From Acidimicrobiaceae bacterium (GTDB lineage Bacteria > Actinomycetota > Acidimicrobiia > Acidimicrobiales > Aldehydirespiratoraceae): a stretch of 9,698 nucleotides of DNA. The notes beneath the pieces were generated by a model. That model saw only the letters and a program-made list of their open reading frames with translations. It searched no databases and had not been told where the DNA came from. The position numbers and the translations under genes were made by a program. Numbering within the stretch: position 1 is the first letter of the stretch; every line of letters begins with the position of its first letter. The stretch covers positions 1 to 9,698 of the forward strand of contig VXNG01000225.1 in assembly GCA_009840695.1 (NCBI GenBank), read 5' to 3'. Of this stretch, positions 28-9,698 are shown in pieces.

Positions 28-61
28 GTCTCGTGTGCTCGGAGTTTTTTATAAGAGATAG
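28..61 (+). other. Degraded Nextera read-2 transposase adapter (sequencing artefact)
   Basis: Aligned without gaps to the 34-nt Nextera read-2 adapter, 29 of 34 positions match, including GTCTCGTG at 28-35, GCTCGGAG at 37-44 and TATAAGAGA at 50-58. The five mismatches (36, 45, 47, 49, 59) are all T on this strand, that is A on the read strand, as expected of poor base calls late in a read. The final 19 nt correspond to the Tn5 mosaic end, so genomic DNA should begin at 62. Base composition jumps to GC-rich shortly after this point. The adapter is a library artefact and not a biological transposon end. Confidence 0.9.
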
Positions 62-546
62 CCCTTTAACGTCTCGGCGTGGTCGGCGGCCACGGGGGCG
101 GCGGCCGACGCGAAGTCGGCTCCCACCTCGATCAAGCGGGCGGTCTGGGATCGCAGCAGCAGCCGAAGCGCCACCCGGGCCGCCTCCCGCCGGGGACGGC
201 CGGCGTGGAGCCACCCGGCCGAGTCCCCGATCCGCTCCACGAAGTGCCGCTCCCGCGAGTTGTACACCTCCCCGGAGGCGGCTTCGTAAGGGAAATCGGC
301 GGGATCGGTGTCGTAGGCGTCGAGCAGCACTCTCAGCAGGTCGGCCGCGGCCTGCTCGGGTATGAGCTCCCGGCTCCGAAGGTCCAGCACATGACCGAGA
401 TCGGCGAGATTCAGGCCATGGTGCAGTAGAGGAGCGTCCGCGATCTCCCACGCGAACCCGGCATCGATCAACTCCTCCGCCGGAGCCTCCGACGACGGCC
501 CCACGAGCCGAGGACCACGGCCCTGGTCGTTCCGGTGCTCACCCAC
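49..546 (-). CDS. Argininosuccinate-lyase-like protein, aspartase/fumarase superfamily (partial, 3' end missing)
   Basis: Only about 161 N-terminal residues are genomic. The last codons and the TAA stop (49-51) come from adapter sequence, so the gene is truncated by the contig end and not by mutation; the family is usually 450-500 residues. The visible part aligns with the argininosuccinate lyase N-terminal region: a helix ending in LLDAYDTDPADF, a segment RERHFVERIGDSAGWLHAGR (98-117) matching the family's IERRLIE-x-G-x-LHTGRSRND block, and ADHAETLKG, which lies where the family has HADT-x-MPGYTHLQ. The substrate-binding GRSRNDQ is replaced by GRPRREA (116-122), which argues against true argininosuccinate lyase. 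The start is the GTG at 546, 6 nt after the permease stop, with GAGGG upstream. In context it may be the second aspartase/fumarase enzyme of a coenzyme M-like pathway; that is inference. Confidence 0.75.
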   Translation of the reverse strand: MGEHRNDQGRGPRLVGPSSEAPAEELIDAGFAWEIADAPLLHHGLNLADLGHVLDLRSRELIPEQAAADLLRVLLDAYDTDPADFPYEAASGEVYNSRERHFVERIGDSAGWLHAGRPRREAARVALRLLLRSQTARLIEVGADFASAAAPVAADHAETLKGYLL

Positions 547-552
547 GAGCCG

Positions 553-1455
553 TCACATCCCTCGATGATCGGTCGCCTGGGATGCGTGCCAGCGCAGGAC
601 CCGCTTCTCCACCGCGATGAGCAGCAGGACGAAGGCGACACCGATGAAGGCCAGCACGAAGACGCTGCCCCACAGCTGGTCCACGAGCAGCCGGGACTGG
701 GCCACCCGGGCCGCGTTCCCCAAACCGTCCCTGGAGTTGAAGAACTCGCCGACGACAGCTCCGACCAGGGCCAGGCCGACGCAGATCCGGCCGGCAGCGA
801 ACAGGTAGGGCAGCGAGTGCGGGAATCGCAGCCGCCAGTAGATCTCCCAGCGGCTGGCATTCACGGATCGCAGCAGCTCGTGGGTCTCCTCGTCGATCGA
901 GCGAAGCCCGATGAGCGCGTTGGCGACGAATGGAACCCATGCGAACAGCATGGCGGTCAGGATCTTCGGCCAGGGCGAGAACCCGAACCACAGCAAGAAG
1001 ATCGGCACCAGCACGGCCACCGGCGTTGACTGCATCAGCACGATCACCGGCGTGGTCGCCCGCTCCACGAACTGGGAGTGCGCCATCCAGGTGGCAACGA
1101 AGAGGGCAGCAAAGAAGGCGATGACGAAGCCCCAGAACGCCTCCTGCACAGTGACCCAGCCGTTCTGCGCGTAGAAGCCTGGATTCTCGGCCACATGACG
1201 GATCACATCGGAGGGCAGCGGCAGCGTGAGGGGCCGCAGATTGCGGACATGGACGTATATCTCCCAGCCCACGAAGAAAGCCGTGAGACCGGCGAAGGGG
1301 GCGACCAGCAGCAGGACCCGGCGCACAGGCCGGCGAGGTACGTCGGGCGGCTCCTCGGCGACTCCCTCCCCGGCCACGTCCAACGTCTCGGGAGCATCAG
1401 GGCCTCCTGCCGCCGACCGGCCGGAGTCTCGTGACGCCACGACGCGACGCGCCAT
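553..1455 (-). CDS. ABC transporter permease, TauC/SsuC/RibX-type (BPD_transp_1)
   Basis: This is an inner-membrane permease subunit of about 300 residues, usual for the family. After a polar N-terminal tail (1-44) there are hydrophobic segments near residues 46-64, 105-124, 137-155, 165-183, 217-236 and 262-281. The cytoplasmic coupling loop (about 189-215) matches the family's EAA loop in the SsuC/TauC style, but the usual Gly is Asn (SVNASRW). I chose the ATG at 1455, which overlaps the ATPase stop by one base (TGATG), over an upstream TTG at 1467; this suggests translational coupling. It should form a homodimer with the neighbouring ATPase and take substrate from the lipoprotein at 3700-4965. 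The substrate cannot be read from sequence: the family includes sulfonate, nitrate, thiamine-precursor and riboflavin importers. Confidence 0.93.
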   Translation of the reverse strand: MARRVVASRDSGRSAAGGPDAPETLDVAGEGVAEEPPDVPRRPVRRVLLLVAPFAGLTAFFVGWEIYVHVRNLRPLTLPLPSDVIRHVAENPGFYAQNGWVTVQEAFWGFVIAFFAALFVATWMAHSQFVERATTPVIVLMQSTPVAVLVPIFLLWFGFSPWPKILTAMLFAWVPFVANALIGLRSIDEETHELLRSVNASRWEIYWRLRFPHSLPYLFAAGRICVGLALVGAVVGEFFNSRDGLGNAARVAQSRLLVDQLWGSVFVLAFIGVAFVLLLIAVEKRVLRWHASQATDHRGM

Positions 1456-2240
1456 CAGTTCGACCAACCGTGCCGCAGCGCGGCCCGGACCTCAGCGAGG
1501 ATGTGGTGATAGTCGTCGCTGTCCTCCACGTCTGCGTGCCGCGGCCTGGGCAGCGGCACGTCGACAACCTTGGTAATACGCCCGGGCCTGCCACTAAGGA
1601 CCGCGACGCGGTCGGACAGCACCACGGCCTCGGGGATCGAGTGCGTCACGAACAGCACGGTGCTGCCGATGCGCCCCCACAGATCGAGGAGCAGGTACCG
1701 CATGTCGGCCCGGGTAATCTCATCGAGGGCCGAGAAGGGCTCGTCCATCATCAGCACGGGCGCTCCGAGAGCAAAGGCCCGGGCGATGCTCACCCGCTGC
1801 TGCAGGCCGCCGCTCAGCTCCCGGGGCAATGAATCCAGGAACGGGGTCAGCCCGATGTCGTCGAGCATGCTGAGCTGGTCGTCACTGGACATGCCACCGT
1901 TGCCTGCGGTCCGGCGGTTGACGTCCTGGAGCAGCGACACGTTCCTGCGCACCGTCCGCCACGGCAGCAGAGCCGGATGCTGCGGCACGAAGCCGTAGCG
2001 CTTCTGACGGCGAGCCTCGGCCGGCGACTGGCGATTGACAACCACGGTGCCCCGGTCGGGTTCGAGCAGGCCCCCGGCCAGGCGCAGCATGGTGGACTTG
2101 CCGCAACCGGACGGTCCGATGAGGCTGACGAACTCCGACTGCTGCACGTCCAGGCTGACCCTCGACAGGGCATGCACGAGCCGACCCTCACGCCTGAACC
2201 ACTTCGACACCGCCTCGAAACTGACGGCCGGCGCGGTCAC
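1455..2240 (-). CDS. ABC transporter ATP-binding protein, SsuB/TauB-type
   Basis: This is the cytoplasmic ATPase that powers the adjacent permease, 261 residues, typical for SsuB/TauB/NrtD-like subunits. All nucleotide-binding elements are present: Walker A GPSGCGKST (42-50), Q-loop Gln87 in FVPQ, signature LSGGLQQR (142-149), Walker B VLMMDEP (162-168) and the switch His200 in VTHS. The start chosen is the GTG at 2240, which forms a 4-nt GTGA overlap with the SDR stop; in-frame GTG codons at 2243 and 2249 are alternatives. A purine-rich GGCGGG lies 8 nt upstream of the chosen GTG. The gene sits between the SDR and permease genes in a tightly coupled operon. The protein looks intact and functional; the transported compound is not evident from it. 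Confidence 0.94.
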   Translation of the reverse strand: MTAPAVSFEAVSKWFRREGRLVHALSRVSLDVQQSEFVSLIGPSGCGKSTMLRLAGGLLEPDRGTVVVNRQSPAEARRQKRYGFVPQHPALLPWRTVRRNVSLLQDVNRRTAGNGGMSSDDQLSMLDDIGLTPFLDSLPRELSGGLQQRVSIARAFALGAPVLMMDEPFSALDEITRADMRYLLLDLWGRIGSTVLFVTHSIPEAVVLSDRVAVLSGRPGRITKVVDVPLPRPRHADVEDSDDYHHILAEVRAALRHGWSN

Positions 2241-2971
2241 CACATGCACATCCCGCCGGTGACGTTGACCGCTTGCCCGGTCATATAGCTCCCATCGTCC
2301 GAGGCCAGGAAGGCGACGGCGGAGGCTACATCGTCGGGTTCACCGAGCCGACCGAGGGGGCTCTTCGCCGTCCAGGCCGCGACCTGCTCGGCGGTGCGGG
2401 TGCCGCTGCCCATGTCTGTGAGGACATAGCCGGGGCAGACCGCGTTCACCGTCACCCCGTGCTGACCGAACTCCATGGCTGCGATCCGGCTGAGGGCCAC
2501 CACCGCCGACTTGGAAGCCGCATAGGCCGCTTCACCCGGCGTACCCAGCTTGGCGGCCATCGACGCCACGTTGACGACCCGGCCACCCACTCCGGCCGCG
2601 ATCATGGCCGGCACCAGCGCCTGCATCACGACCACCATGGAACGAACGTTCACCCGGTGAACGCGATCCCACTCGTCCAGCGTCATCTCCAGCAGCGGGG
2701 TCTTGGAGAACACGCCCGCGTTGTTGACCACAAGCCAGTAGGGCTCGTCACCGTCACCGGCTGCCAGCGCGGTCCGAGTCCGGGCGGCATCGGCCAGATC
2801 GACTACGAGGCTGGCGGCCCCCAGGCCCTGGGCGACATCGGCGACGGCCGGGTCGACGTCGACCAGCGTGGCTTGCATCCCCTCGGTGACCAGCCGCTCC
2901 GAGATCCGGCGACCGATCCCTCTCGCCGCGCCGGTGACGAGGCAGCGGCGGCCCCGGAGCCCGTCAGCCAT
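2237..2971 (-). CDS. Short-chain dehydrogenase/reductase (SDR), classical type
   Basis: This is a 244-residue NAD(P)(H)-dependent oxidoreductase with a complete classical SDR set: cofactor motif TGAARGIG (13-20), NNAG (83-86), structural Asn108, catalytic Ser137, Tyr150 and Lys154 (YAASK), and PG at 180-181. Asp38 at the end of the second strand favours NAD(H) over NADP(H). The closest general family is FabG-like or secondary alcohol dehydrogenases; the substrate is unknown. In coenzyme M-linked epoxide metabolism, hydroxypropyl-CoM dehydrogenases are SDRs. Here Glu147 sits three residues before the Tyr, where, from memory, the R-specific enzyme has a sulfonate-binding Arg, although Arg192 lies near the second such position. 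That role is therefore not supported. The gene starts at ATG 2971, 23 nt after the riboflavin synthase stop. Confidence 0.93.
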   Translation of the reverse strand: MADGLRGRRCLVTGAARGIGRRISERLVTEGMQATLVDVDPAVADVAQGLGAASLVVDLADAARTRTALAAGDGDEPYWLVVNNAGVFSKTPLLEMTLDEWDRVHRVNVRSMVVVMQALVPAMIAAGVGGRVVNVASMAAKLGTPGEAAYAASKSAVVALSRIAAMEFGQHGVTVNAVCPGYVLTDMGSGTRTAEQVAAWTAKSPLGRLGEPDDVASAVAFLASDDGSYMTGQAVNVTGGMCMW

Positions 2972-2994
2972 GCGGTCAGCGGCGTACTCGACGG

Positions 2995-3642
2995 TTACGG
3001 GACCGGACCGGAGTCGAGGATCTGAGCACGGAAGCTCGAGTCGCTGAGCAGCTCCTGGACGGTGTGGACGATGGCCTGGGTGTGGGCATCGATCTCGAGG
3101 TTGACACGATCACCGACGGTCACCCGACCCAGGGTCGTCCGCTCCAGCGTCTCGGGGATCAAGCTCACCGCGATCCGGTGGGCGCCGCGATCAACCCCCG
3201 AGATGGTCAGGCTGGCACCGTCGATGGCGACCCACCCCTTCCAGAGCAGGTACGGCATGAGCGACTCGTCGACGTGGAACCACATCGTGCGGTTGCCGTC
3301 CTCGGCGATGATCTCGCCCACGGTGGCCGTTCCCGACACATGACCGGACAGGACGTGCCCCCCGAGTTCATCCCCGAAGCGCAGCGAACGCTCGACGTTG
3401 ACCGGGTCGCCAACGGTGAGGTTCCCGAGGTTCGTCAACTCCATCGTCTCGGCGATCACATCGAATCGCGCCGTCGAGCCGTCTATGTCCGAGACGGTCA
3501 GGCATGTCCCGTTGTTGGCCACGCTTGCGCCGGCCTGCAGGCCGTCTGCATGAGGGCCGAGGTCGACGGTCAGGCGGCAGATGCCATCGACCGTCTCGAT
3601 GTCGACTACCCGGCCCATCCCCTGAACGATGCCGGTGAACAT
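2995..3642 (-). CDS. ribE: Riboflavin synthase, alpha subunit (E. coli-like type)
   Basis: This enzyme dismutates two 6,7-dimethyl-8-ribityllumazine molecules to riboflavin plus the pyrimidinedione precursor. The 215-residue length is normal. It has two tandem lumazine-binding domains (about 1-95 and 96-195), the start MFTGIVQG, NNGTCLTV (43-50), GDELGGH (90-96), SGHVSG (99-104), DGASLTI (141-147) and LIPETLERTTLG (161-172). Residues linked to activity in E. coli have counterparts: Phe2, Cys47, Ser144, Thr146 and Asp185. NLEIDAHTQAIVHTV resembles the E. coli C-terminal region more than usual Gram-positive forms. The gene starts at ATG 3642 with GGAGG 6 nt upstream. No other riboflavin biosynthesis gene is in the window, and it is inserted between the binding protein and the rest of the transporter. 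Confidence 0.96.
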   Translation of the reverse strand: MFTGIVQGMGRVVDIETVDGICRLTVDLGPHADGLQAGASVANNGTCLTVSDIDGSTARFDVIAETMELTNLGNLTVGDPVNVERSLRFGDELGGHVLSGHVSGTATVGEIIAEDGNRTMWFHVDESLMPYLLWKGWVAIDGASLTISGVDRGAHRIAVSLIPETLERTTLGRVTVGDRVNLEIDAHTQAIVHTVQELLSDSSFRAQILDSGPVP

Positions 3643-3648
3643 GCCGGT

Positions 3649-3653
3649 CCTCC
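3649..3653 (-). promoter_or_regulatory. Strong ribosome binding site of riboflavin synthase
   Basis: On the minus strand GGAGG lies 6 nt upstream of the ATG at 3642, within the 57-nt gap after the lipoprotein stop. It fixes the riboflavin synthase start and suggests independent, efficient initiation rather than coupling. Confidence 0.8.
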
Positions 3654-3699
3654 CTTCAGGCCGGTGCGGCCACCCTGAGGCCCCTCCGGTCAGGACGGG

Positions 3700-4965
3700 T
3701 CACGGACCCGGCCAGATCAGCGTGGTTCCGTCGTACACGCCCGCGGCGAAGTCGGGATTCACCATCGACTGCCAGTCAGGCGCCGACTCGAACACACCGG
3801 CCTCCACAAGCGCATCGATCTCGGCGCCGAACAGGTCGAGGTCGGGGATGCCCACGCCTACGCCGGCGGGTGCGAGATCGGCGATGAGGCCGGACTCCAC
3901 GCCCCAGCGGTAGCGCTCCGCCTCCATGGCGAACCACAGCGGGTTGCCGGCCGCGTCGATCAGCTCGAACGCGTTCTCCACCGCGATGTCCGGATTGGCG
4001 GCCGCGAAGGCCTGGCCGCGGATCAGGGCTCGCACCACGTCAGCCACCAGGCCAGGGTTGTTGTCGATCATCGACTGGGTCGTGAAAGTGACGCCGAAGC
4101 TGGACGGCACGTCGAAGTCGAGCGGATCGAGCATGGTGAAGGCCACGCCGTTGTTGGTCAAGGTGTTGGGCTCGTTCGACTTGTACACGGGCAGGGCGTC
4201 GATGCCCAACTCGAGATGGGCGATCGGGTCGAAGCCGTCCAGCAGGATCTCCTCGAAGCAGCTCCGCTCGATTCCCGACAACGCGACGGAGGCCTGCAAA
4301 GAGTACGGCAGGTCGCCCTTGATGCCTATGAGACTCCCGCACAGCCCGGCGAAGTCCTCTATGGCGCTGCCCTCGGGGAGCACGATCGCCTCAATGGCGG
4401 TGCGGCCCCAGTGGATCAGGGCCACGAGATCGCCCTCTCCGGCAACGTTGTTGGCCACCAACTCGGCGAACGATCCGGACGCTCCGAACTGGGCCTGGCC
4501 CTCGATTACCAGCGCCCCGTTGGAGGGCGCGAACCCGGGCTGTACTTCGAAGTCGATGCAGAGCTCGTCGAAGTACCCCTGGGCATCGGCGACGATGGCA
4601 TCGATGATGCCGGCCGCGGCCGCGAAGTCGAACCCCGTGACGAAGGTCATCTTTCCGGCGTCGCGGTTGGCCTGGCACCGCTCTGCAGCCGCGTCCGGCT
4701 CGGGCTCAGGCGCCGGCTCGGGCTCAGGCTCGGGCGCCGCCTCCGGCTCGGGCTCGGGCTCAGGCGCCGGCTCGGGCTCAGCTGCCGGCTCGGGCTCAGG
4801 CTCGGGCGCCGGTTCGGGCTCAGCTGCCGGCTCGGGCTCAGCTGCCGGCTCGGGCTGGGCCGGAGCCGCATCCTCGTCGTCGCCGCACGCAGCCGCCACC
4901 AGTGCCAGTACCAGCAGGGCCATCAACATGGCACGCGGCCTCCGGAACGAACTGTTGTGTCTCAT
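3700..4965 (-). CDS. Substrate-binding lipoprotein of NMT1/THI5 (TauA/ThiY/RibY-like) family
   Basis: This is a 421-residue extracytoplasmic binding protein. Residues 1-27 form a lipoprotein signal: basic start, hydrophobic core [14 protein letters not shown], lipidated Cys27. An acidic linker of Ala/Glu/Pro repeats spans 38-90. The ligand-binding domain follows (about 104-421), with features of the NMT1/THI5 family: [20 protein letters not shown] (111-130) then [12 protein letters not shown] (260-269), [11 protein letters not shown] (277-287) and [16 protein letters not shown] (302-317). Cys97, Cys136, Cys209 and Cys236 could form disulfides outside the cell. The start is ATG 4965 with GGAGG 7 nt upstream. 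It is the first gene after a 130-nt leader and is followed by riboflavin synthase, so it probably feeds the permease/ATPase pair. Sulfonate, a flavin or a thiamine-type precursor are all possible ligands. Confidence 0.93.
4696..4845 (-). repeat. In-gene tandem repeat coding an Ala/Glu/Pro linker
   Basis: Variants of an 18-24 bp unit are repeated in tandem. On the minus strand they encode AAEPEP and APEPEPEP blocks (residues 41-90 of the binding lipoprotein). The linker follows the lipidated Cys and a DDED acidic patch, so it likely spaces the ligand-binding domain from the membrane through the cell envelope. Such repeats readily change copy number. Confidence 0.85.
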
Positions 4966-5095
4966 CGTCTCGCCTCCCCCGGCATGACCAGATCGGCCTG
5001 ACCGCTACTGCGGTTCCCGCTGAGGAGGAGTCTGCCAGTCCCGGTCGATCGACGCCAATGCTGCGACACTGTCCGATCCCCGCATTAACGCCAGT
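4966..5095 (-). promoter_or_regulatory. 130-nt leader with possible Shine-Dalgarno sequestration upstream of the binding lipoprotein
   Basis: This is the longest non-coding gap between the lyase and the lipoprotein. On the minus strand a strong SD (GGGGGAGG, 4973-4980) sits 7 nt before the ATG. The upstream stretch CCTCCTC (5022-5028) can pair over 7 bp, with one G-U, with GGGGAGG at 4973-4979, hiding the SD. Between them, ACCGC/GCGGT (5001-5014) and GCGG/CCGC (5010-5020) can form mutually exclusive short hairpins. I see no FMN (RFN) riboswitch boxes and no rho-independent terminator. The SD is certain; the regulatory fold is a hypothesis. Confidence 0.35.
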
Positions 5096-6445
5096 TCAGG
5101 TCCATTCTTGGGTCTCGCGGTTGCGTCGCTCCCTGGCCGCCGCGACGACGGCGTCGACCATCGCCGACGCCGAGCCGGTCTCGGGGCGGTCCAGCCCTTC
5201 GAGTTCCGCCGGTGTGGCGACGCCCTGGAGGGTCTCCACCAATGGACGGCCCAGTTCACGGGCCCGCCGGTAGGCGAGTTGCAGCTCGTCGTTGGCCCGG
5301 TGCTTGCCCAGCCTCGCCGACAGGCGCTTCAGCAGCTCCTGGGATCCGAAGTCGCCCATGGTCTCCAGGTTGGCCTCCATCGCCTCGGCGTCCACTTCGA
5401 TGCCGGCGGTGAGGCCGCGGGCCATCGTGAGCTGGGCCAGCAGGTAGTGGCACACTTCGGGAAGCAACACCCATTCGGTCTTCCAGGTGCGGCCGTCGCG
5501 CTCGTGGTCGCCGACCATGGTCTCGGTGAGGGTGCCCGCGGCCGACCGCACCAGGCGCGCCAGGGTCACCATCTGCTCGCTGCGCTCCGGGTTGCGCTTG
5601 TGGGGCATCGTGAAACTGCCCATGGTGGCCTCCGAGGCAGCCTCTGCCACCTCTGCGATCTCGCGTCGCTGGAGGTTGTAGACCTCGTTGGCCATGCGGG
5701 CCATGGTGGCCGACACCAGGGCGGCGTTGCTGGCGAACTCGGCTATGCGGTCGCGCGCTGCGATCCACGAGACGGTCGGCTCGCCCAGTCCGAGGCGCTG
5801 GCAGAAGCGGCCGCGCAGCTCCGGGCCGAGCTCCCCGTAGAAGCCCAGCGCCCCCACCGCGCCGGCCAGCTGGCCCACCACCAGGCGGGGACGGCTCTGG
5901 CGCCAGCGATCCAGGTGCCGGGCCGTCTCGTCGGCCCAGGAGGCAACCTTGAGCCCGAAGGTCACCGGGGCGCCGGGCTGGCCGTGGGTGCGACCCAGCA
6001 TGGGCGTGTCGCGATGGCGCCCGGCCAGCTCCAGCAGCGAGCCCTCCACGGCCCGCAGGTCCCGCCACACGATCGCCCCGACGTCGCGCATCTCCAGCGC
6101 GGCCGCGGTGTCGGAGACGTCCTGCACGGTGGCGCCGTAGTACACGTGCTCGCGGGCATCGGCGGGCAGCTGGGCCTGTAGCTCGCGCACCAGTCCAGCG
6201 GCGGAGTGCGAGGTCCGTCGGGTCTCGGCGCCTACCGCGGCCGGATCGAGGCTTTGGGCGTCGAGCCGGTCGATCGCTTCGGCCGAGGAGGCCGGAATGA
6301 TCCCCAAGTCGGCCTGCGCGGCGGCGAGAGCCTTGAGCACCAACACCCAGCGCGTCAGGCGGGCCCTCTCGGAGAACAGGGCCAGCGACTCCGGGGTGGA
6401 CCAACCGTGGCCGTAGACGGCCGAGTCGATCAGATGAGCGTCCAT
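5096..6445 (-). CDS. Adenylosuccinate lyase/PcaB-like lyase, aspartase/fumarase superfamily (XcbC1-like candidate)
   Basis: This is a complete 449-residue lyase. Superfamily motifs are present in order: YYGATVQDVSDTA (102-114), GRTHGQP with catalytic-region His154 (151-157), NEVYNLQR (253-260), and the signature loop GSFTMPHKRNP (276-286) holding the expected general-base Ser277 and Lys283. The second Ser of the usual GSS is Phe278. Sequence style is that of PurB and 3-carboxymuconate cycloisomerase. The start is ATG 6445, overlapping the preceding gene by 16 nt, with GGGGA 6 nt upstream. Two genes downstream of a ComA homologue, it is a good candidate for the phosphate-eliminating step that makes sulfoacrylate from phosphosulfolactate, as XcbC1 does in Xanthobacter. 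A purine or protocatechuate role has no support from the neighbours. The superfamily is certain; the exact reaction is inferred. Confidence 0.93.
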   Translation of the reverse strand: MDAHLIDSAVYGHGWSTPESLALFSERARLTRWVLVLKALAAAQADLGIIPASSAEAIDRLDAQSLDPAAVGAETRRTSHSAAGLVRELQAQLPADAREHVYYGATVQDVSDTAAALEMRDVGAIVWRDLRAVEGSLLELAGRHRDTPMLGRTHGQPGAPVTFGLKVASWADETARHLDRWRQSRPRLVVGQLAGAVGALGFYGELGPELRGRFCQRLGLGEPTVSWIAARDRIAEFASNAALVSATMARMANEVYNLQRREIAEVAEAASEATMGSFTMPHKRNPERSEQMVTLARLVRSAAGTLTETMVGDHERDGRTWKTEWVLLPEVCHYLLAQLTMARGLTAGIEVDAEAMEANLETMGDFGSQELLKRLSARLGKHRANDELQLAYRRARELGRPLVETLQGVATPAELEGLDRPETGSASAMVDAVVAAARERRNRETQEWT

Positions 6446-7356
6446 GAGCCGTCCCCGGATCCGGCCAGCGCCACGAGGGCCCGGCGAACCTCGGCGAGGG
6501 TGGCGCCCCAGGGCACCATGGCGGTGTCGCCCCGACGCTCCAGACCCTCCTCCAGCAGGCAGCAGCGGCTCAGAACCAGGGCCGAGCCGTCGCTCTCCCC
6601 GCCGTCGGCGTCGATGAGGCGGCGCGGGCACCAGTCGATGGTCCGGACCGGGTCGGCGCCGTAGAACCAGCGGTGGATCTGCCGGGAGCGCTCGCAGCCG
6701 AGCAGGGTCGATCCAGCGGAACTCGGACGCTCGTCGAGGTGCGAAACCTCTACGCCCTCGATCTCCACGCCGCCGCCCCGGCACGGGACGACCAGCCCCT
6801 CGGGCACTGGCTCCGTCACGAGGGCGCGGCTGTCGAGTATGCGCTCGGTCACTGCGATGGGAGGCAGATCCTCGGCCGTGTCCAAGACCCGGGCCACCTG
6901 GTCGGCCAGCTTCGACGGCTCGGGCGGCACGACGTCCACCACGGTGATCCGGATCGGATCGGCGTTGAGGAGGAAGCTGACGTGGCGGTACCGGCCCTCC
7001 ACCACAATGCAGCGCCGGTCCGGGCGGCGGAGCGCAACCCGGGCCAGGTGGGAGGCGATTCCAAGGTCGGCGCCGTCGTCCCGCACGTAGGCGCAATCCT
7101 CGGCGGAGGCCAGCACCCGGGCCGCCAGCGCCGGCGAGAAGAGTTCGTCGCTGCCGTCGCGGGCCAGCTCCACCAGCGCACAGCGGTCGGGTTCGCCGTC
7201 GAGGCGGGCCACCACGAACCTGGTCCTGCAGTACGCCTCCCGTCCTGTGAACCGGGCCACGAGATCGTCCGGCGACAGGCTCGGGACCGCGGCCACGGAC
7301 ACCTGCCGGTACCGCGACGGCATGATGTTGGGTGAGGCGGGGTCTAGGTCGAACAT
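6430..7356 (-). CDS. Conserved-looking protein of unknown function, Cys-containing, within the ComA/lyase operon
   Basis: I do not recognise this 308-residue protein by function. It has no signal peptide or membrane span, so it is probably cytosolic. Nine cysteines are present, including those in VVEGRYRH's preceding RRC, DWCPRR and RCCLLEEG near the C-terminus. Other motif-like stretches are LDTAEDLPPIAVTERI, VVDVVPPEPSKLADQV, RWFYGADPVRTIDW and AMVPWGATLAEVRRAL. It overlaps the ComA-like gene by 13 nt and the lyase by 16 nt, so all three should be co-translated and act together. The start is ATG 7356; an in-frame ATG at 7323 would give 297 residues and begin just before RYRQVSVAAVPSL. Neither start has a clear SD, fitting coupling to upstream translation. 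In-frame sequence upstream of 7356 is antisense or shadow of ComA and is excluded. Confidence 0.85.
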   Translation of the reverse strand: MFDLDPASPNIMPSRYRQVSVAAVPSLSPDDLVARFTGREAYCRTRFVVARLDGEPDRCALVELARDGSDELFSPALAARVLASAEDCAYVRDDGADLGIASHLARVALRRPDRRCIVVEGRYRHVSFLLNADPIRITVVDVVPPEPSKLADQVARVLDTAEDLPPIAVTERILDSRALVTEPVPEGLVVPCRGGGVEIEGVEVSHLDERPSSAGSTLLGCERSRQIHRWFYGADPVRTIDWCPRRLIDADGGESDGSALVLSRCCLLEEGLERRGDTAMVPWGATLAEVRRALVALAGSGDGSWTLI

Positions 7357-8132
7357 GCGGCAGCAAGGCGGGTTCGGAGAGTGTCGGATCGCAGCCCGCG
7401 CCGGAGGGCCTCCACTGCGAGTAGCTCGTCGCGCGAGATGTTCGCCAGGTTGACGTTCGACCCCAAGTGATTCACGAGCCAAGCCTGCTGTTCCCGCCGG
7501 GGTGCCTCGTACACCACCGGGACCTCGGGTCCGGCGGCCTCGAGGGCGTCCACGAGATCGGCCCTCACCAGCCCGTCGGCGGTGTAGAGCCCCACGGTCC
7601 CGCTCTCCCGGCCCTCGGCCACCAGCCAGCACGCCCCGCTGTCTATGTCGCGCCGGGCCTCGGTAAGCCACCGGTCCGGGCGGGCCGGCTCGCCCGGATC
7701 CTTGCCCCCCACCTCAGCGAATACCTCGAAGCCGTGGTGGCGAGCCCTAGCAATCAGATCGAGCTTGGAGGCAGCTGGCAGGTCGGTGGCCCCGCGGGAC
7801 ACTTCCACGCAGTCGAAACCGAGTTCCCGGGCCCAACTGAAGAACTCCTCCGCACGCCCCTGCCACCAAGCCGCCTCTAGAAGCGTCCCGCCCGGGCAGG
7901 CCTTGACCCCGTGCGACTGGAGCAGCTCGATCTTCGACGCGACGTCGCGGTCGAGATAGGCGGTACCGAAACCGAACTTCCAGACATCCACGAATGCACC
8001 GTGGGCCCGCAGCCGCTCATCGATGCCTGCGGTCGGGGTGCCGGTGTCAATTACGTGGGTGATGCCGCTGCGGCGCGGCTTGATCGTCCGGGCAGCCGTC
8101 TCGAGGAACCGGGGAGGCTCAGAGATGGGCAT
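7344..8132 (-). CDS. comA: Phosphosulfolactate synthase (ComA family)
   Basis: ComA-family enzymes add sulfite to phosphoenolpyruvate to form (R)-2-phospho-3-sulfolactate, the first step of coenzyme M synthesis in many methanogens and in Xanthobacter (XcbB1). The 262 residues fit the family, a TIM-barrel. Signature stretches are VWKFGFGTA (50-58), CPGGTLLEAA (79-88), GFDCVEVSRG (105-114), FAEVGGKDP (138-146), VAEGRESGT (171-179), VYEAPRREQQ (207-216), GSNVNLANI (224-232) and RRGLRSDT (244-251). Compared with the Methanocaldococcus enzyme as I remember it, the DKG near the start is DTG (29-31) and EISDG is EVSRG. The start is ATG 8132 with AGGAG 9 nt upstream. Bacterial homologues also include Bacillus YitD, so product identity rests on the neighbouring lyases rather than on this gene alone. 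Confidence 0.95.
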   Translation of the reverse strand: MPISEPPRFLETAARTIKPRRSGITHVIDTGTPTAGIDERLRAHGAFVDVWKFGFGTAYLDRDVASKIELLQSHGVKACPGGTLLEAAWWQGRAEEFFSWARELGFDCVEVSRGATDLPAASKLDLIARARHHGFEVFAEVGGKDPGEPARPDRWLTEARRDIDSGACWLVAEGRESGTVGLYTADGLVRADLVDALEAAGPEVPVVYEAPRREQQAWLVNHLGSNVNLANISRDELLAVEALRRGLRSDTLRTRLAAACST

Positions 8133-8182: not shown

Positions 8183-8989
8183 CTATGAGAGTCGGTATGG
8201 GGCGAGTTCTGTGGCGGCCAGAGCGAGGCCGGCCACGAGCGCCCGGCCTGACGTGGCGCCCACCCCGGCCAGTGACGCCGCAGCCCGACGCATCCCGGCC
8301 TGATCACCCGATCCCGCCGCGTCCAGTAAGGCGTGCGCGGGCTGGATGCTCTGACCAGCGGCTGCCCACCGGAGGAAGGCTCGGCTCAATCGTGTGGTTC
8401 GCGCCGTGAGGGCCAGGTCGGCAAGGGCGTCCCTCCGGCGCCGGTCGATGGCCGCCACCAGCAGGATCCCGGCGAGCACATCGTCGCCGCTCGGAGTCAA
8501 GCCGTCGCCGCGACCCTGAAGCCGATCGAACACCGGGGCGAGATCGCCGCGGCGAACGTCGCCGATGACGGTCTCCCACACACTGGCGATACCGGCGTCC
8601 ACACCCGGAGCGATGCCGTGCCAGACCGCCGGGCCGGCATCGAGATTCTCGGGCAGGCGCGGCACCCAGTGGCGGGATCCCGCGAGGCGGACACGAAGCG
8701 GCCCTGCTGCCAACTCGCTGCCCGAGACCGTGACCCGGTCGTGCACGGCCGGCAGTGCCGGCATTGTGCCGGTCACCAGGTGCAGGGGACCGGGCCAGCA
8801 CCCCGGTCCCAGGACTGCGAATACCGTCCCGGAGGGTCCCGAGACGTAGAACCCGCCACCGAAGACGCCCTCCACCCGGCCGATGAAGTCCCGTGATGTC
8901 GCCTCCAGCACGGCTTGGCCGACCGAGATCGCGGAGACCCGACCCGCCGCTGCTATACCGTGCGGCCGTGCCCTCGCCGGAGACGTCAT
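8183..8989 (-). CDS. DUF2877 (AllH-like) domain protein
   Basis: The DUF2877 hallmark GRGDGLTPSGDDVLAG (159-174) is present, followed by TARTTRLSRAFL (196-207) and a second Gly-rich element GVGATSGRALVAGL (242-255). The family includes AllH/YlbF, a component of the oxamate carbamoyltransferase system of E. coli, but most members are uncharacterised and no AllF or AllG partners are in the window. The start is uncertain. ATG 8989 gives 268 residues but overlaps the divergent PurM-like gene by 22 nt and has no SD. An in-frame GTG at 8911 gives about 242 residues, removes the overlap and still precedes the conserved GRVEGVFGGGFYV. The ComA-like gene follows 50 nt after the stop, so co-transcription is possible. 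A link to the sulfonate pathway is unproven. Confidence 0.85.
   Translation of the reverse strand: MTSPARARPHGIAAAGRVSAISVGQAVLEATSRDFIGRVEGVFGGGFYVSGPSGTVFAVLGPGCWPGPLHLVTGTMPALPAVHDRVTVSGSELAAGPLRVRLAGSRHWVPRLPENLDAGPAVWHGIAPGVDAGIASVWETVIGDVRRGDLAPVFDRLQGRGDGLTPSGDDVLAGILLVAAIDRRRRDALADLALTARTTRLSRAFLRWAAAGQSIQPAHALLDAAGSGDQAGMRRAAASLAGVGATSGRALVAGLALAATELAPYRLS
8951..8959 (+). promoter_or_regulatory. Extended -10 promoter for a probably leaderless PurM-like transcript
   Basis: TGC followed by TATACC is an extended -10 element, an AT-rich patch in very GC-rich DNA. The GTG start of the PurM-like gene begins 9 nt after the hexamer, where transcription should start, and no SD precedes it. 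This fits a leaderless mRNA, common in Actinobacteria. No convincing -35 box is seen. Confidence 0.4.
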
Positions 8990-9698
8990 CGCTGGACCGG
9001 CTGGTCGCCGCGGTGCGGGACCATGACGGCTTGCGGGCCAAGCAAGCCATCGGGGCCGTGCGCCGGGTCATCGAGGCCTCCGATCCGGCGACCGGGCCTG
9101 GCGACGATGGCGCCGTGGTGGAGGTGCCCGCCGGAGGCTCGGTCATCGTTTGCGGCGAGGCAATGCATCCCGCGTTCGTGGCCTCCGATCCGCGGGCTGC
9201 AGGCATGGCGGCCGTGCTCGCCAACGTCAACGACCTGGCCGCCATGGGGGCAGTCCCCAGAGGCATCGTGAACACGGTGGTGGCTCCGGCCGAGGTGGCG
9301 GCCGAGGCGCTGGGCGGCATGGCCGAAGCGGCCAGTCTCTACGACGTGCCGGTCGTGGGCGGGCACATCACCGAGCACGAGGGCGAACCGGCGCTGTCGG
9401 CCTTCGCCGTGGGGTATGCCGACCGTGTCCTGTCGGCGAGCCGGGCCAGTCCGGGCCAGCACCTCGTCTTCGCCGGCTGCCTCGACGGCCGCATGCGCGC
9501 CGACTTCCCCTTCTTCACCACCATCGGCTCCCGGGGATCGCGCATGGCCACCGACGTGCGCCTGCTGGCTCACGCGGCCCGAGAGGAACTCGCGTCGGCG
9601 GCCAAGGACGTCAGCATGGCCGGCTCGATCGGCTCGCTGGCCATGCTTCTCGAGCCCGAACAGCTCGGGGCTGAGATCGACCTGGACAAGCTGCCGGT
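8968..9698 (+). CDS. AIR synthase-related (PurM-like) protein, partial at right edge
   Basis: The frame stays open for 243 codons from GTG 8968 to the window end, so the 3' end is missing. PurM/SelD/ThiL-superfamily features are GPGDDGAVV (43-51, the Asp pair used for metal-ATP), ANVNDLAAMGAVP (86-98), VGGHIT (130-135) and KDVSMAGSIGSLAMLLE (213-229). True PurM in purine synthesis normally has a different N-terminus. The form with an N-terminal helix (SLDRLVAAVRDHDGLRAKQAIG) before the GDD loop resembles AIR-synthase-related families such as sll0787-like proteins and methanogenesis marker 2, though I cannot separate these by eye. The protein probably makes or uses a phosphorylated intermediate with ATP. 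It is transcribed away from the minus-strand cluster, so involvement in the same pathway is only suggested by proximity. Confidence 0.88.
   Translation, partial: MPSPETSSLDRLVAAVRDHDGLRAKQAIGAVRRVIEASDPATGPGDDGAVVEVPAGGSVIVCGEAMHPAFVASDPRAAGMAAVLANVNDLAAMGAVPRGIVNTVVAPAEVAAEALGGMAEAASLYDVPVVGGHITEHEGEPALSAFAVGYADRVLSASRASPGQHLVFAGCLDGRMRADFPFFTTIGSRGSRMATDVRLLAHAAREELASAAKDVSMAGSIGSLAMLLEPEQLGAEIDLDKLP

Follow-up and report, generated by a model that had tools for sequence, protein, structure and literature searches.

The stretch of DNA analyzed here (the window) spans positions 1 to 9,698 of contig VXNG01000225.1 from an Acidimicrobiaceae bacterium (assembly GCA_009840695.1). It carries genes related to the Xcb genes of bacterial coenzyme M (CoM) biosynthesis, together with members of a conserved nitrile/cyanide nitrogen island. 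Twelve genes or gene parts were read in the window. The order on the minus strand is AllH, ComA, an XcbA family protein, XcbD, an NMT1-type binding protein, RibE, a short-chain dehydrogenase/reductase (SDR), an ABC (ATP-binding cassette) ATPase, an ABC permease and a cut XcbC. Neighboring genes of this array are spaced by -37 to +130 bases when the XcbD start is set at 6466; with XcbD starting at the first ATG, 6445, it overlaps XcbA by 16 bases. The ComA/XcbB, XcbA-family (DUF7714) and XcbD-type genes overlap end to end, and a five-gene cassette separates XcbD from the N-terminal third of the XcbC-type lyase. An earlier note on this DNA had described a ComA homolog and two aspartase/fumarase lyases in one co-directional array, and all of these do lie on the minus strand. 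NCBIfam models exist for XcbA, XcbC, XcbD and XcbE, and the first three of these families, along with ComA/XcbB, are represented in the window.

The gene for ComA/XcbB, phosphosulfolactate synthase (7344..8132, minus strand), matched PF02679 with 246.9 bits. On the archaeal equivalog model TIGR03849 it scored 237.3 bits, under the cut-off of 280, and it aligned to M. jannaschii ComA (1qwg) with 166 bits versus 134 bits to B. subtilis YitD (1u83). In the ComA tree it was placed with the bacterial Xcb set and YitD fell outside; the tree rules out sporulation YitD as the identity of this gene, at a weakly supported fork (82/91), in agreement with the original assignment. Xanthobacter ComA was placed on a long branch with archaeal ComA (86/87), apart from the other bacterial ComA proteins. 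The gene overlapping comA (6430..7356, minus strand) had been correctly put in the array but was listed as an unknown protein; it belongs to the XcbA family (NF052538, 298 bits, cut-off 150; PF24830/DUF7714, 276.6 bits) and corresponds by position and size to "xcbF1" of mycobacteria. Residues C187, C216, H223, R224, Y227, C238, C260 and C261 are invariant in 29/29 rows of the family, and these eight look catalytic or metal-binding. A fold search with the predicted model (predicted local distance difference test, pLDDT, 88.2) gave no PDB match at E <=0.001, and comparison of the family profile with solved structures gave no match.

Both lyases were assigned to Xcb families. The PurB/PcaB-like protein (5096..6445, minus strand), a member of the aspartase/fumarase superfamily with the loop GSFTMPHKRNP, is of XcbD type by model, loop and tree; its best NCBIfam model was XcbD with 500.5 bits (cut-off 600), compared with 257 for purB. 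The active-site loop [GS]S[IF][ST]MPHK[RV]NP was present in 41/41 XcbD rows, Xanthobacter among them, and SSAMPHK in 8/8 PurB rows; the XcbC and XcbD rows were selected independently of the motif, and the housekeeping PurB and ArgH open reading frames (ORFs) were the longest with S[SA]xMPxKxN in loci from the ArgH/PurB-family search, so that their motif holds partly by construction. The ArgH-like protein (62..546, minus strand), about 161 N-terminal residues of an XcbC-type lyase (phosphosulfolactate phosphate-lyase family), had the XcbC model NF052535 as its best match, with 83.9 bits over 141 residues of the cut gene (cut-off 575); argH scored 31. Over 151-164 residues, this part is 84-89% identical to the full-length XcbC proteins found in relatives. 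Those full-length proteins scored 411-439 bits on the XcbC model, under its cut-off of 575, versus 167-234 for housekeeping ArgH of the same genomes among the rows listed. For one of them, from relative L004, the scores were 438 on XcbC and 267 on argH (argH cut-off 279.5), and an alkene-type XcbC (genome G016) scored 792. The XcbC loop pattern was absent from two of 36 XcbC rows, L040 and L041, which carry RASVLLPQKRNP.

In a 58-row tree the XcbD of the window grouped with that of its relatives, of Xanthobacter and of JS614 (97/92), and the eight PurB rows lay outside this clade; the XcbC of the relatives likewise formed a clade with that of Xanthobacter (100/97) that excluded the 13 ArgH rows. 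The program issued a long-branch warning, and the cut XcbC of the window, being too short, was left out. Housekeeping PurB and ArgH were thus ruled out by tree and loop motif, which upholds the view that neither lyase is a housekeeping enzyme.

The XcbC-type gene is cut by adapter sequence at the end of the contig. A degraded sequencing-adapter remnant, a Nextera/Tn5 arm without strand assignment, lies at 28..61 and matches at 29 of 34 positions; its alignment score is 24, and no other stretch of the window scored above 14 (148 stretches scored). The letters used for this match are those that we take to be the Nextera transposase adapter. Bases 1-61 are non-genomic sequence. The gene is therefore cut at about base 62, and the stop at 49, at which the earlier note had ended its ArgH-like gene, is an artefact. 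Adapter sequence left at this contig end may also occur on other contigs of the assembly.

At the other end, the conserved neighborhood extends beyond 8132, where the cluster had been closed. AllH/DUF2877 (8183..8989, minus strand), a homolog of an oxamate carbamoyltransferase subunit, matched PF11392 with 71.7 bits (cut-off 25). An AIR-synthase-like gene of the NitF/sll0787 type (8893..9696, plus strand, with its 3' end past the window) is divergent from the array; its best NCBIfam model was sll0787 with 176.9 bits, under the cut-off of 321.3, and its real start is probably inside this ORF. Both genes are members of the same neighborhood as the Xcb genes.

The wider setting was established from relatives. 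Scanning genome contigs with the XcbA family gave 37 loci, 13 from Acidimicrobiia metagenome-assembled genomes (MAGs) with 76-85% identity and 24 others with 45-53%, the latter from Pseudonocardia, Actinomycetospora, Nocardioides, Kribbella, Paraburkholderia, Methylocystis, Nitrobacter, Sphingobium and other Acidimicrobiia. Going by their names, we take the close Acidimicrobiia MAGs to be of sponge origin. A plasmid scan with XcbA gave six records; of the four examined, three were alkene-type and one, from Methylocystis iwaonis, was nitrile-type. In the XcbA tree the three alkene-type rows split from the other 38, including the window, at 100/99, and the nitrile-type clade so defined spans two phyla with the same neighbors.

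Island gene families were modeled from the loci and named via Pfam and NCBIfam. Near the Xcb genes, these include nit1C-type genes (NitD-type radical SAM, NitE-type GNAT, NitF-type AIRS and MSMEG_0572/NitB), a MSMEG_0565 glycosyltransferase, AllF (FdrA), AllG, AllH and often carbamate kinase, and the alpha and beta subunits of a Co-type nitrile hydratase with an activator-like protein. Other members are an AmiS/UreI channel, a CbtA cobalt transporter, OsmC, a cupin-helix-turn-helix regulator and a coenzyme A (CoA)-disulfide-reductase-like flavoprotein. The NitD, NitE and NitB homologs of the relatives exceed their model cut-offs, and AllF, AllG, AllH and carbamate kinase are present there by homology; the window itself holds AllH from the second set and, from the first, only the AIRS-like gene, under its cut-off. 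The whole island set was found in G158, at 968-1036 kb of a single contig. A Nit6803 nitrilase replaces the hydratase in Methylocystis, Nitrobacter and Sphingobium: nitrilase was found only in L015, L016, L018 and L039, and nitrile hydratase in the Acidimicrobiia set and the other Actinomycetota loci. The Co-type motif CTLCSC was present in 12/12 Acidimicrobiia-set loci with a nitrile hydratase alpha gene in the stretch examined.

Several further features of the island were noted. The MAGs of L002-L012 and L037 carry cobalt-type nitrile hydratases with CbtA genes nearby. An aeroplysinin nitrile hydratase has been described from sponge, of sponge or symbiont origin, with peptides that matched no known hydratase (PMC3766881). 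LarC and LarE genes (nickel-pincer cofactor) adjoin the island in actinomycetes (L021, L026, L032 and others). Another protein conserved in the island is about 238 residues long (L006:6612-7349, and also in 18 related loci); it had no Pfam or NCBIfam match, and a fold search with its model (pLDDT 88.9) gave no PDB match at E <=0.001. One candidate family, f29, was dropped as the antisense of nitrile hydratase alpha.

Linkage between the Xcb genes and the island was strong. In the stretches fetched, 35/38 related loci (L001-L037 and L039) had one or more nit1C, All or nitrile genes, versus 0/3 alkene-type loci. A homolog of the NitD radical-SAM protein exceeded the cut-off in 33 of 36 genomes. 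XcbA and a NitD homolog were on one contig, 2.4-30.2 kb apart, in 26 of the 36 (one of these, G028, having a 206-bit partial NitD match at a contig end, under the cut-off); NitD was on a separate contig in eight, and the remaining two had none or just a 25-bit match. Among the 51 genomes of the family of G004, XcbA occurred in 14 and a NitD homolog in 14, with both in 13, XcbA alone in one, NitD alone in one and neither in 36 (Fisher 4e-10). Among 120 Pseudonocardiaceae genomes, a lower-scoring NitD type (380-402 bits) occurred in four, nitrile-type XcbA in three and both in three (Fisher 1.4e-5), these NitD and XcbA classes having been defined after the scores were seen. XcbA accompanied the higher-scoring NitD type in 2/19, both of them with the high-scoring XcbA type. 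The XcbA-nit1C pattern spans Actinomycetota and Pseudomonadota. Conserved co-occurrence of the array genes, a point on which the earlier note had made its proposal depend, was likewise strong and seen in many genomes.

The module and the island are thus tied by homology, gene order and co-occurrence. The reading that we favor, and hold to be fairly probable, is that the window contains an Xcb-type sulfonate module of an uncultured Acidimicrobiia-like bacterium within a conserved nitrile/cyanide nitrogen island, and that the module makes CoM or a close sulfonated thiol serving the island. Judging from their families, ComA would add sulfite to phosphoenolpyruvate, XcbC would remove phosphate to give sulfoacrylate, and XcbD would add a thiol compound to the sulfoacrylate, with XcbA participating in an unspecified step; the XcbB, XcbC and XcbD steps to sulfoacrylate and the thiol adduct are as given in PMC8727900. 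CoM or a close sulfonated thiol would then be released by a C-S lyase distinct from XcbE. The neighborhood suggests that this thiol would serve the nitrile/cyanide island (nitrile hydratase or nitrilase, the nit1C parts, AllF/G/H and carbamate kinase) and not epoxide breakdown.

A number of observations weigh against this reading. Only two island genes, AllH and the AIRS-like gene, are in the window, the rest being known from relatives with 72-88% protein identity, and XcbD, XcbC and the AIRS-like protein all fall short of the cut-offs set by their NCBIfam models. No island gene was present in the stretch examined for L020 (a 7.5-kb contig), L023 and L028. G040 lacks XcbA but has the lower-scoring NitD type, G011 has XcbA without NitD and G156 has NitD without XcbA (with contig ends in both of the last two); the Fisher tests also ignore kinship among genomes. 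The module is not always complete, since G010 lacks ComA and XcbC. Finally, no XcbE was detected in the 13 closest genomes.

This last point bears on the strongest alternative, in which the module makes some other sulfonate, for instance an osmolyte or building block of sulfopropionyl-cysteine or sulfolactate type, and the lineage halts before the XcbE step. The pyridoxal phosphate-dependent XcbE-like gene anticipated by the earlier note is absent from the window and was not found in 13/13 of the closest genomes (best 37.6 bits, as in control genomes), and a complete Xcb CoM pathway is accordingly not claimed for the window lineage. The NCBIfam name for XcbD, 3-sulfopropionylcysteine synthase, also fits such a product. 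However, 22 of the 23 carriers that are more distant keep an XcbE homolog (at least 137 bits) and have the same neighbors, which makes CoM the simplest product of the clade, and we regard another sulfonate as unlikely.

A second alternative concerns the cassette between XcbD and XcbC, which might import a sulfonate feeding XcbD and so replace ComA and XcbC. All on the minus strand, the cassette comprises an ABC permease (553..1467, PF00528), an ABC ATPase (1455..2249, PF00005), an SDR (2237..2971, PF13561), the riboflavin synthase alpha subunit RibE (2995..3642; NF009566, 251 bits, cut-off 180) and an NMT1/THI5-type substrate-binding lipoprotein (3700..4965, PF09084). The lipoprotein signal of this binding protein is followed by a long linker of Pro/Glu/Ala repeats, which attracts false matches to repeat-rich proteins. 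Import of a sulfonate would suit G010 (L010/L054), which retains XcbA and XcbD and has ABC genes directly after XcbD, with ComA and XcbC gone from the genome and the nearby AllH gone; the window, holding both sets, would then be an intermediate state. Whatever the role of its ABC genes, G010 is a natural dissection of the module. Against import, G001 and G009 have the same five genes, RibE and SDR included, intact at a site separate from the Xcb genes, the binding protein scored 27.8 bits on the SsuA_fam model, far under the cut-off of 163.5, and RibXY riboflavin transporters share COGs with sulfonate/nitrate/taurine ABC sets (PMC4418817). We therefore consider sulfonate import improbable.

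Variants of the cassette lack the SDR (G167), lie loosely inside the island (G158) or, as in G010, consist of ABC genes only. Its standing away from the Xcb genes in relatives marks it as a unit of its own that at times joins the island; the earlier note had joined it to the CoM set. It is most likely a separate supply unit for a flavin, more than a sulfonate uptake system. It resembles the RibXY-type ABC riboflavin transporter in its NMT1/COG0715-type binding protein, which in the window adjoins riboflavin synthase, and differs in including an SDR and in that no flavin mononucleotide (FMN) riboswitch was found in the window. An Rfam scan of the window gave no match at the gathering score, and no tRNA was found in it. 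In G001 (L097, L096) three short genes without a Pfam match lie between XcbD and XcbC; insertions seem to be accepted at the XcbD-XcbC junction.

CoM in bacteria is known from alkene/epoxide metabolism. The least probable explanation considered here is an ordinary CoM pathway of this kind with nitrile genes as chance neighbors in a catabolic island: Xcb genes elsewhere are known beside alkene monooxygenase and the epoxide-opening epoxyalkane:CoM transferase, EaCoMT (PMC11507031), and single-Cys CoA-disulfide-reductase-like flavoproteins occur near both kinds of locus, but the nitrile-type XcbA proteins form their own clade (100/99) in two phyla with the same neighbors, and a close, full-length EaCoMT homolog (50%) was found in just one of 36 genomes, Methylocystis sp. 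Sn-Cys (G016), on the contig of a second, alkene-type xcb copy. Four further genomes had full-length EaCoMT matches of 34-35% that are closer to methionine-synthase relatives. The pairing of EaCoMT with xcb genes that would place the window in the alkene/epoxide pathway was thus not found, and there is no link to the known CoM-using epoxide enzymes; the neighborhood points instead to nitrile/cyanide nitrogen, a connection absent from the earlier note. The Methylocystis strain (L015, contigs C17, C19), with both a nitrile-type and an alkene-type locus, is a good one for separating the two roles.

Within the favored reading, of a module serving the island, a bolder and testable but improbable idea is that CoM or a close relative carries a cyano/carbamoyl one-carbon nitrogen unit. 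Cyanide and CoM disulfide would give CoM-S-CN, which the cobalt nitrile hydratase would convert to S-carbamoyl-CoM; the AllF/G/H homolog would then release CoM by passing the carbamoyl group on to phosphate, and carbamate kinase would yield ATP, CO2 and ammonia. Handling of the CoM disulfide would fall to the single-Cys CoA-disulfide-reductase-like flavoprotein. This idea draws on three hints. No amidase was present among the genes assigned in the nitrile-hydratase islands; in L006 all called genes of at least 150 residues were assigned to families, none of them an amidase (the rest of the genomes was not searched for amidases). Carbamate kinase tracks nitrile hydratase, and in E. coli the AllF/G/H proteins produce carbamoyl phosphate through phosphorolysis (PMC11326118). 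Carbamate kinase was present in 17/17 nitrile-hydratase loci with AllF versus 0/3 nitrilase loci with AllF, a post hoc comparison in which the three are one kin group; the remaining two AllF loci, L001 and L014, have carbamate kinase with neither nitrile enzyme in view. The CTLCSC motif and the description of thiocyanate hydrolase as a nitrile-hydratase relative (PMC3511329) were counted as further hints. Against the idea, nitrilase loci retain AllF and AllG, which the scheme would not need.

The locus shares ComA/XcbB, the XcbA family, XcbC and XcbD, with the same active-site loop types, with the Xcb clusters of Xanthobacter autotrophicus Py2 pXAUT01, Nocardioides JS614 and Mycolicibacterium NBB4. 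It differs from them in that its XcbA falls in a separate clade, XcbE was not found in the closest genomes, and nitrile, nit1C and All genes adjoin in place of EaCoMT, alkene monooxygenase or CoA-transferase. The presence of a transporter and an SDR, which had been thought to make a new layout, is not in itself novel: the xcb genes of pXAUT01 in Py2 have SDRs and a "nitrate/sulfonate" ABC set as flanking genes, and in mycobacteria the distance from the SsuABC genes to the CoM genes is 2.7 kb (PMC8727900). NitB (MSMEG_0572), NitD, NitE and NitF homologs in the relatives, and the nitrilase of Methylocystis, Nitrobacter and Sphingobium, recall the nit1C cluster (NitA-H) of Pseudomonas and others. 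In contrast to nit1C, Actinomycetota have nitrile hydratase in place of nitrilase, and CoM genes and AllF/G/H are added, none of which appears in the available part of the published description (PMC11049912). Homologs of all four components of the E. coli oxamic transcarbamylase AllFGH and carbamate kinase AllK occur in the relatives, but no allantoin genes were seen in the annotated stretches and the set accompanies nitrile and CoM genes.

Bacterial CoM clusters are known already. Among the literature matches listed, which cover the literature in part, neither a description of the distinct clade with its nit1C, All and nitrile genes nor any publication joining CoM biosynthesis with nitrile/cyanide genes was found; a sponge transcriptome study names phosphosulfolactate synthase and nitrile hydratase transcripts, unlinked in the part available (PMC4412061). 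Culturable carriers exist, so the favored reading is directly testable. If it is true, CoM would have a second bacterial role beyond alkene/epoxide metabolism, and the long-unexplained nit1C genes (radical SAM, GNAT, AIRS) would gain new partners to test. It would also add a route for cyanide/nitrile nitrogen in soil bacteria, in methanotrophs and in what, going by the MAG names, are presumably sponge symbionts.

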